Positions 59,980 through 60,880 of a DNA stretch of 64,000 bases are shown here, piece by piece. Origin of the DNA: an uncultured Clostridia bacterium. GTDB taxonomy: Bacteria; Bacillota; Clostridia; Oscillospirales; Ruminococcaceae. A program made the translations under genes and the position numbers. The notes below the pieces were generated by a model. The model saw only the letters and a list, made by a program, of their open reading frames with translations. It was not told where the DNA came from and ran no database searches. The DNA lies in contig CANQVE010000001.1 of the NCBI GenBank assembly GCA_947627205.1, forward strand, positions 62,001 to 126,000, in the 5' to 3' direction. The number at the start of each line of letters is the position of its first letter. Within the stretch, counting starts at the first letter, position 1.

Positions 59980-60008
59980 TTGAAAATACAACTATAATAA
60001 CTTATAAT
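59980..60008 (+). promoter_or_regulatory. SigA promoter of the XRE regulator
   Basis: TTGAAA (59980-59985) and TATAAT (60003-60008), 17-bp spacer. The start would be at about 60015, overlapping AGGGTGG, so the transcript would be nearly leaderless with only about 11 nt before the ATG at 60026. Confidence 0.7.
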
Positions 60009-60025
60009 ATAATAGGGTGGTTAAA

Positions 60026-60418
60026 ATGAATAATGAAAAATGTTTTAAATACGGAGAAAGGCTGAGAAAACTGCGCAAAGAGCGCGGATTGTCGCAGGAG
60101 GAAGTTGCGATGCGCGCAGATATCACGACGTCATATTACGGTCAGCTTGAACGCGGAACGGCAAATCCGACCGTTTTATTGCTTGAAAAAATATGCGCCG
60201 TCATGGGCTTTTCATTAAACGATATATTTGCCGAAACAAGCACAAATCTGCTCGGAATCGACTCGCTTTCAATGCAGGTTCTTCAGCAGATACACGGAAA
60301 GACCGACCGCGAGAAAGAGCTTGTACTGTCGCTTATGAAAACTGCGTTTAAACTTCAGAACGAAAAACAGCAAAAAAATCCCTCTAAGCGAGGCTCTAAA
60401 GATGATATGGTTTTGTAA
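60026..60418 (+). CDS. XRE-family transcriptional regulator
   Basis: 130 aa. The helix-turn-helix spans about residues 8-62: GERLRKLRKERGLSQEEVAM, then TTSYYGQLERGTANPTVLLLEKI, then the DIFAE end of the domain. A helical C-terminal part (residues 75-130) with KTDREKELVLSLMKTAFKL may mediate dimerisation. The start is the ATG at 60026 with AGGGTGG 5 nt upstream; the preceding GTG lies in that site. It ends nine bases before the duplicated antisense-RNA unit whose hairpin probably serves as its terminator. Targets are unknown; candidates are its own promoter, the SHOCT gene and the adjacent toxin-like locus. Confidence 0.88.
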   Translation: MNNEKCFKYGERLRKLRKERGLSQEEVAMRADITTSYYGQLERGTANPTVLLLEKICAVMGFSLNDIFAETSTNLLGIDSLSMQVLQQIHGKTDREKELVLSLMKTAFKLQNEKQQKNPSKRGSKDDMVL

Positions 60419-60426
60419 ACCCGCAT

Positions 60427-60537
60427 AAAAAATCCCCCTGAGTACCACCATCAGGGGGATATTTTTGTGAACCTGTGGAAATTTTAGCGTTTCCTATCTC
60501 ACAATTACGTTACAGAATATTGAAAAGAATTTGTCAA
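60427..60537 (-). ncRNA. Candidate antisense-type small RNA, copy 1 (weak promoter)
   Basis: Minus-strand TTGACA (60532-60537) with 17-bp spacer but TGTAAC (60509-60514) in place of TATAAT, so the -10 has lost its two most conserved positions. The RNA would run about 60502 to 60427 (76 nt) and end in a hairpin with six T. It converges on the XRE gene. The coordinates given include the promoter. Confidence 0.5.
60433..60466. terminator. Bidirectional terminator, copy 1
   Basis: TCCCCCTGA (60433-60441) and TCAGGGGGA (60451-60459), 9-nt loop. T runs occur on both sides: TATTTTTG on plus and GATTTTTTATG on minus. It would end the XRE transcript and the copy-1 small RNA. Confidence 0.85.
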
Positions 60538-60555
60538 TTGTTTTTATGACATAAA

Positions 60556-60584
60556 TTGACAAATAACTTCAACTATGATATAAT
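60556..60584 (+). promoter_or_regulatory. Consensus SigA promoter of the Fst-like peptide
   Basis: TTGACA (60556-60561) and TATAAT (60579-60584), 17-bp spacer, perfect consensus. Start near 60591, so the mRNA begins GCCGGTTACCACCC. Confidence 0.9.
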
Positions 60585-60632
60585 ACATTTGCCGGTTACC
60601 ACCCGAGCTTTATGCGAGGGGAGGTGAAATCT

Positions 60633-60719
60633 GTGGATATAATTTTGGCGTTTTTAATATCCGTCGCAGCAGGTCTGTTCGTAGAAGCGGTCTACAATTG
60701 GCTCGACGTAGAACAGTAA
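60633..60719 (+). CDS. Fst/Ldr-like small membrane peptide, putative type I toxin
   Basis: 28 codons from GTG at 60633, with GGGGAGGTGA ending about 6 nt upstream. The peptide reads (M)DIILAFLISVAAGLFVEA then VYNWLDVEQ: a single hydrophobic helix followed by Tyr, Trp-Leu-Asp and an acidic tail. This is the architecture of the Fst family (hydrophobic core, aromatic or basic hinge, xLD, charged end). It is too short for routine gene calling. Its mRNA has a consensus promoter, a 42-nt leader containing TACCACCC, and a hairpin at its 3' end shared with a convergent small RNA. Toxicity is inferred from this layout, not shown. Confidence 0.72.
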   Translation: MDIILAFLISVAAGLFVEAVYNWLDVEQ

Positions 60720-60734
60720 TCGGTAAGCCTACAT

Positions 60735-60809
60735 AAAAAGTCCCCCTGAGTACCACCCTCAGGGGGATATTCTGTGAACCTGTGGAAATTTTGGCGTTTC
60801 CTATCTCAC
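60735..60809 (-). ncRNA. Candidate type I antitoxin RNA (about 75 nt)
   Basis: Predicted start near 60809, seven bases after the -10 box. The end is in the hairpin CCCCCTGAG...CTCAGGGGG followed by CTTTTTA. The RNA overlaps only the 3' end of the peptide mRNA, and its terminator loop GGGTGGTA is complementary to TACCACCC (60597-60604) in the peptide mRNA leader. This two-site arrangement resembles the par (fst/RNAII) locus of Enterococcus. Expression is inferred from promoter and terminator. Confidence 0.72.
60741..60767. terminator. Shared hairpin terminator, copy 2
   Basis: TCCCCCTGAG (60741-60750) and CTCAGGGGGA (60758-60767), loop TACCACC. The T run is strong for the minus strand (CTTTTTA) and weak for the plus strand (TATTCT). 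Confidence 0.85.
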
Positions 60810-60815
60810 GATTGT

Positions 60816-60844
60816 ATTATAGCATATTGAAAAGAATTTGTCAA
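60816..60844 (-). promoter_or_regulatory. Consensus SigA promoter of the antitoxin-like RNA
   Basis: TTGACA (60839-60844) and TATAAT (60816-60821), minus strand, 17-bp spacer, perfect consensus. Confidence 0.9.
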
Positions 60845-60880
60845 GAGTTTTTGTAAAATAATATTTTCACTTATATGCTT

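Follow-up and report, generated by a model that had tools for sequence, protein, structure and literature searches.

A candidate par-like type I toxin-antitoxin module of uncultured Clostridia and its toxin-less antisense RNA copies

A 28-codon reading frame and an oppositely oriented small RNA gene, separated by a hairpin, lie beside the 3′ end of the acetate kinase gene of an uncultured Clostridia bacterium. This arrangement raises the question of whether the two form a type I toxin-antitoxin module and, if so, by which contacts the antisense RNA would recognize its target and why another copy of it lies alongside. The locus was analyzed within a 64,000-nt contig segment (the window) and compared with related genomes, plasmids, and phage-like records. 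Sequence comparison points, with a probability of about 0.85, to a type I toxin-antitoxin module of the par kind on the chromosome, whose 28-residue membrane peptide would belong to a clade resembling Fst/Ldr.

Architecture of the locus and its peptide family

The two convergent promoters, predicted to direct a toxin mRNA and an antisense RNA, each match the SigA consensus at 12 of 12 positions, with 17-nt spacers and a TG ahead of the −10 (Table 1). Between positions 60000 and 61500, a promoter scan returned six sites scoring 9/12 or better, where shuffled sequences would give 2.6. A strong Shine-Dalgarno (SD) sequence precedes the GTG frame, and the minus-strand RNA is predicted to run from ∼60809 to ∼60733. 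R1, a covariance model covering promoter and antisense RNA and built from 28 sequences, matched 60733 to 60844, promoter included, with 93.7 bits, the window sequence being one of the training sequences. At Rfam gathering cutoffs the whole window gave a single match, a tmRNA elsewhere, and none at this locus. The first-pass annotation, made from the letters alone, had described both perfect promoters, the SD, the 28-codon frame, the hairpin, and an antisense RNA of ∼75 nt, and all of these were recovered in the sequence. The repeats DRa and DRb and the second antisense-RNA copy at 60425 to 60537 had escaped it.

Table 1. Positions of found and predicted features in the window
Feature	Position	Strand	Basis
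Toxin mRNA (RNA I-like) promoter, TTGACA-17-TATAAT, TG-extended	60556–60584	+	12/12
Toxin mRNA 5′ end, pairing with 60716–60724 over the stop codon	60591–60599	+	MFE fold of 60591–60775; family test, 53 modules
Leader hairpin, SD in 3′ arm	60596–60627	+	Single-leader fold
DRa target across SD edge and start codon	60624–60637	+	Alignment, toxin start vs antisense region
Toxin-like peptide, 28 codons, GTG start, one hydrophobic helix, SxxxG-x8-W signature	60633–60719	+	Frame, signature
DRb target, codons 3–7	60641–60653	+	Repeat search; alignment
3′ partner of mRNA 5′ end, spanning stop codon	60716–60724	+	MFE fold
Antisense RNA (RNA II-like), ∼75 nt	60733–60809	−	R1 match
Hairpin between both genes	60741–60767		Terminator-like on minus strand; T-run weak on plus
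DRa′ and DRb′ within antisense RNA	60774–60799	−	Repeats, alignment, duplex energy
Antisense RNA promoter, TTGACA-17-TATAAT	60816–60844	−	12/12
Second antisense-RNA copy with promoter, without own toxin gene	60425–60537	−	R1 match; 86–90% identity to other copy

The hairpin had also been taken for a terminator shared by both transcripts, and this holds by half in the window, because the T-run that follows it on the plus strand is poor (ATATTCTG; better in several relatives), and the scan for terminator-like sequences scored the minus strand only. Compensatory changes at 5 of its 8 predicted pairs were found in an alignment of 28 sequences. With RNAalifold, the terminator hairpin was the only structure recovered from 28 antisense genes, and no conserved 5′ stem-loop emerged.

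Searches of 100 relatives gave DNA matches in 48, many of promoter length only, and protein matches in 35 (E value up to 10), mostly within the same genus. Iterating a profile search brought together 69 different peptide stretches, not all of them complete. Across the 68 homologous modules in which both promoter scans ran, the toxin promoter had a 6/6 −35 in 58 and a 6/6 −10 in 52, and 54 modules had at least 11/12 on both promoters within range. Profile A1, made from 47 peptides, matched 37 of the 43 genus genomes at E values up to 1 and identified 90 places in 28 of the 43 at 1e−3. Farther out, its matches fell in 21 of 345 genomes from the order and in 14 of 398 from the phylum, the window's genome being counted in both. 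A wider profile of 49 peptides (A3) aligned to A1 with an E value of 4.5e−22. The family is multicopy in the genus, patchy in the phylum, and also present on plasmids. Among nine named loci from GTDB genomes, seven were from "Lapin" (rabbit) metagenome-assembled genomes (MAGs) of uncultured Clostridia. Tandem pairs of modules lie beside flagellin genes at L014 (G042:C4) and L015 (G034:C11), a setting that differs from the window's, next to acetate kinase; the flagellin is a PF00700 match in the former and is named by resemblance only in the latter. Divergent toxins of ∼30 to 46 residues, similar to the others in type of leader and of antitoxin, were seen at L242, L243, L250, L251, L253, and L249, all missed by the 28-residue profile at 1e−3.

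The family consensus retrieved 223 plasmid records at E values up to 1, 189 of them from Enterococcus; many matches lie near 1, and the records therefore serve as leads only. The homologues L189 to L197 come from Mediterraneibacter, Waltera, Butyricicoccus, Aerococcus, Ligilactobacillus, and Enterococcus plasmids and from two records of phage collections. In eight of the nine plasmid or phage-like loci the repeats beat the best of 100 shuffles, L193 being the exception. The incomplete PLSDB gene table had no feature under the match in 20/20 and 30/30 of the plasmid records listed. As a plasmid toxin in its own right the window peptide was set aside, a single plasmid record being retrieved with an E value of 4.

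The window peptide carries SVAAG-x8-W, fitting the P/D/S/TxxxG helix motif with a conserved W before a charged tail that excerpts of Weaver's review give as the Fst/Ldr signature (PMC7472228). The pattern [PDST]xxxG-x8-W was present in 28 of the 47 genus peptides and 17 of the 49 wider peptides, against ∼0.2 per set in shuffles. In 91 homologue pairs, codon positions 1, 2, and 3 had 661, 314, and 995 differences; with the first ten codons removed the counts were 377, 208, and 572. The toxin frame is thus under selection at the protein level, the opposite of an outcome that the first reading had named as fatal to its proposal, a 28-codon frame lacking conservation as protein within conserved DNA.

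Curated models were less accommodating. The window peptide had no match above cutoff and no listed match to Fst, Ldr, or the Clostridioides difficile model NF047374; a weak XapX-like match (E value, 0.0027; 17.2 bits against a cutoff of 27.8) was rejected as evidence of XapX/DUF1427 kinship. The Pfam Fst model PF13955 exceeded its cutoff at these loci in none of 44 genomes. Below cutoff, the NCBIfam Fst model NF033608 matched 16/47 and NF047374 15/47 genus peptides, and in the wider set NF047374 matched 26/49, Fst 7/49, and Ldr 9/49; none of 47 shuffled peptides of the same composition matched NF033608 or NF047374, this control covering the NCBIfam models only. The best E values of other members were marginal (Pfam Fst, 1.1e−3; NCBIfam Fst, 8.4e−4; NF047374, 2.1e−5), and the wider member for which a bit score is given reached 14.1 bits on NF047374 against a cutoff of 60, the rest being known by E value only. 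Unrelated membrane models were touched as often as the type I toxin models (XapX, 10/47; DUF2158, 19/49), Phage_holin_3_3 was weakly matched by 6/47, and phrog_738, of unknown function, by 29/47. Against all PDB sequences, the best match of A1 was LdrD (E value, 0.088), which was also the sole match of A3 (E value, 0.42). The peptide has the Fst/Ldr signature, yet curated models, where readable, do not recognize its toxin clade.

Antisense recognition and folding of the toxin mRNA

DRa in the antisense gene (60774 to 60786) repeats 60624 to 60637 at the toxin start, and DRb (AATTTTGGCGTTT; 60787 to 60799) repeats 60641 to 60653 within the toxin frame. Local alignment of each toxin start with the repeat region of every antitoxin in 54 modules gave a mean score of 41.2 for cognate pairs and 24.3 for noncognate pairs, and the best of 20,000 permutations reached 27.9. 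The toxin's own antitoxin was best or tied for 43 of 54 toxins, and 50 modules scored above the 99th percentile of shuffles. For the other 11 toxins a foreign antitoxin outscored the native one, at least 14 foreign antitoxins doing so in 4; three of these 4 are G033/G007 modules without clear repeats (two at L071 and one at L076). At more distant loci, the repeat score beat all 50 shuffles for 48 of the 59 peptides listed. The predicted duplex of the antisense RNA with the window toxin start had an energy of −48.0 kcal/mol, and that of the upstream copy −45.6 kcal/mol; the repeat regions of 53 other modules averaged −26.4 kcal/mol (standard deviation, 6.8; best, −47.3).

Recognition had been assigned by the first-pass annotation to another place, namely, pairing of the terminator loop of the antisense RNA (GGGTGGTA) with the toxin mRNA leader (TACCACCC) as a second pairing site. 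The window and G007 each have such a complementarity of 8 nt, and L020 has a run of 9 nt; unbroken runs of at least 8 nt are confined to a few modules, one of them the window's. Over 53 modules, however, loop-leader pairing scored 12.1 for cognate, 11.8 for noncognate, and 12.0 for shuffled pairs (permutation P = 0.185), and the leader segment concerned is predicted to be the anti-SD arm of the leader hairpin. Lacking a cognate excess, the loop-leader contact was rejected as a conserved recognition site, and as a model it is very improbable. The conserved contact instead appears from the alignments to be DRa/DRb over the start codon and codons 3 to 7. The wider par-like proposal is supported more strongly than the first reading could tell: dozens of homologues likewise have convergent promoters, an SD-sequestering leader, DRa/DRb, the hairpin, and the Fst/Ldr signature.

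Because aligning 41 leaders with MAFFT gave no structural alignment, shuffles and arm swaps were used in its place. The SD core had a predicted mean unpaired probability of 0.21, compared with 0.385 when its surroundings were shuffled (51 leaders), and 23 of the 51 lay under the 10th percentile set by shuffling the same leader. When leader arms were swapped, the mean cognate minimum free energy (MFE) of −14.48 was better than in all 20,000 permutations (best, −14.09), and the cognate leader was the best for only 1 of 51. In the MFE structure of the full-length window mRNA, the SD hairpin was not formed, other pairings being preferred. Pairing between the mRNA ends, also suggested at first pass, proved longer than originally noted, joining the extreme 5′ end to a segment over the stop codon. 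Over 53 modules it scored 17.6 for cognate, 15.4 for noncognate, and 11.9 for shuffled pairs, a level reached by none of 5,000 permutations; in only 8 of the 53 did no foreign partner outscore the own one, several modules having short matches. An extreme 5′ end sequestered as in the par/Fst type is therefore predicted for the window, with short pairing in some modules.

These features suggest a working model. RNA I would start near 60591 and encode the 28-residue membrane peptide, and while free it would be poorly translated, with the SD held in the leader hairpin and the 5′ end by the stop codon region, both as predicted structures. RNA II, ∼75 nt long and read from the opposite strand, is predicted to pair through DRa′/DRb′ with the RNA I start codon and codons 3 to 7, and through the common hairpin; covariation supports this pairing, and by analogy to par it may block ribosome entry. 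Should RNA II fall, the peptide would be made and, as with Fst/Ldr, could harm the membrane. The upstream RNA II copy would be a spare antitoxin, either kept or decaying.

Antitoxins without toxins and the ackA site

The upstream copy scored 90.8 bits with R1, outside whose training set it falls; in its promoter the −35 is intact and the −10 has decayed to TGTAAC (4/6). R1 matched 41 of the 43 genus genomes at E values up to 0.01. At E values down to 5e−5, 40 of 122 antitoxin places had no adjoining toxin match, and 10 of 90 toxin places had no antitoxin match. Inspection of 31 of the 40 toxin-less antitoxins showed a divergent toxin beside 8 (including L249) and one (L233) sitting just beyond an intact module, so that 22 of the 31 remained toxin-less. 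For three more, which bring those covered to 34 of the 40, namely, the spare copies at the window site in G000 (the window's genome), G002, and G007, no toxin was seen in the sequence examined. The 10 antitoxin-less toxins comprised 4 with a perfect antitoxin promoter, 2 with a degraded antitoxin, and 4 with none recognizable. Toxin-less antitoxins thus appear to outnumber antitoxin-less toxins after inspection too, with "toxin absent" provisional because many relatives are incomplete MAGs. R1 includes the promoter and favors antitoxins in which it is intact; selection can therefore not be read from the promoters that orphans retain.

When 27 toxin-less antitoxins were compared with 76 genus toxins (54 for the G007 copy), 16 matched a genus toxin above the 95% level of shuffles, and 11, L249 with its divergent toxin among them, matched none. 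For 9 of the 27, a match in another genome exceeded the best in the own genome by at least 10, the own genome being represented for G007 by the toxin of its own locus only. On contig C27 of the window's genome there is a third antitoxin, with no toxin seen upstream; it scores 46.6 on a toxin of relative G002 and 41.0 on one of G007, as against 26.5 on the window toxin.

The site beside the 3′ end of the acetate kinase gene (ackA, named by Pfam in the window) could be compared in four genomes. In G000 the toxin, its antitoxin, and the spare are all of type I; in G007 toxin and antitoxin are of type I and the spare of type II; in G005 toxin and antitoxin are of type II and the spare of type I; and in G002 the start of toxin I is broken by an integrated element next to antitoxin II and spare II. 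Predicted duplexes of cognate pairs ranged from −39 to −46 kcal/mol, and those of type I antitoxins on toxin II from −16 to −19 kcal/mol; specificity is not symmetric, as type II antitoxins retain −27 to −31 kcal/mol on toxin I. We read this site as one where specificities were exchanged and the old antitoxin was kept, by selection or as debris. A helix-turn-helix (HTH) gene adjoins the module in G000, G002, and G005, and other sequence takes its place in G007. In the window this gene, of the Cro/C1 type (60017 to 60418), lies directly upstream, and the hairpin of the spare antitoxin follows the HTH stop codon and could act as the terminator of the HTH gene.

The mobile element in G002, at L083 and L011 (G002:C10 and G002:C35), encodes a serine recombinase of the large type (PF07508, PF00239) together with a C-5 cytosine methylase (PF00145). 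It interrupts the toxin frame near codon 11, and the conserved toxin codons may be its attachment site. At L078 (G024:C2:6500-10500), three of four neighboring modules carry an identical insert of ∼100 nt in place of the stretch that begins inside the toxin promoter and ends near codon 9, while the C-terminal half and the antisense gene of each are retained; outside overlapping loci of this one place the replacement sequence was not found. Toxin frames are broken beside an intact antisense gene in G002, by the integrated element, and three times in G024.

Two other readings have to be weighed against this background. The upstream copy could be a decaying duplication without any role, which we rate at slightly less than even odds. 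The degraded −10 in the window agrees with this, as do the 11 of 27 toxin-less antitoxins (L249 included) that match no genus toxin above the shuffle level; at the same site in relatives, however, the −10 is 6/6 in G005 and 5/6 in both G007 and G002, and in all four genomes the copy is predicted to pair well with a toxin of one or the other specificity, at −39 to −44 kcal/mol. The alternative that toxin-less antisense copies constitute a heritable immunity repertoire against the type I addiction modules of relatives, with specificities set by DRa/DRb and exchanged at fixed sites, is offered tentatively and is rather unlikely on present odds.

A more basic doubt concerns the peptide, which might be no toxin but a small membrane protein, regulatory or structural in role, with a cis-antisense RNA adjusting its level. 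Its toxicity is a prediction from sequence, its weak XapX-like match would suit such a role, and the module occupies a chromosomal site beside acetate kinase. This reading is nevertheless improbable given the excess of toxin-less antitoxins (40/122) over antitoxin-less toxins (10/90), the toxins interrupted while the antitoxin is intact, the homologues on small plasmids and in phage-like records, and the Fst/Ldr signature. A membrane toxin controlled by RNA II is accordingly the reading we prefer.

Comparison with known systems

A literature search for five sequence motifs of the family gave no match, most subscription papers lying outside its scope. Judged by titles and the beginnings of abstracts, the papers listed on orphan antitoxins, anti-addiction, and type I toxin-antitoxin systems were general or concerned mainly type II. 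According to PMC12548467, some chromosomal toxin-antitoxin systems act as anti-addiction modules; the idea is thus not new, and its application to antisense-RNA copies is our own. Nor are Fst-like peptides in Clostridia new as such, as the excerpts on asparagiforme indicate. The significance of the locus lies in a par-like family, apparently without annotation, that extends across gut Clostridia and reaches plasmids. With a recognition code that is short and readable and that relatives exchange, the genus is a natural test bed for the evolution of antisense specificity, as well as for whether toxin-less antisense RNAs act as anti-addiction immunity.

The type I toxins of C. difficile (NF047374; CD2517.1, CD0956.2, and relatives) resemble the window locus in having convergent toxin and antisense genes in Clostridia, and 26 of 49 wider members match their model weakly (best E value, 2.1e−5). 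Sections of PMC6563280 describe toxins of 34 to 59 residues with no homology to known type I toxins and long complementarity suggesting mRNA degradation, whereas the window has short repeats over the start site. The ldr-rdl system of Escherichia coli shares the G-x8-W spacing of the family profile, and LdrD was the top PDB match, although with E values of just 0.088 and 0.42; according to excerpts of PMC7472228, ldr/rdl is regulated more like hok/sok, unlike the convergent arrangement of the window.

The closest likeness is to par/Fst of the Enterococcus faecalis plasmid pAD1 and its chromosomal relatives (PF13955/NF033608). As far as the excerpts of PMC7472228 describe it, that system likewise has convergent promoters, an antisense RNA crossing DRa/DRb at the toxin start, an SD-sequestering 5′ hairpin (here predicted), a common hairpin, and a short peptide with P/D/S/TxxxG, a conserved W, and a charged tail. 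The window differs in that its peptide lacks an Fst model match, PF13955 finding no locus in the 44 genomes, and the pairing of the mRNA 5′ end around the stop codon may be a further difference. From its sequence, the locus appears to work like par and to share most of the architecture that could be tested, with the common terminator half matched.
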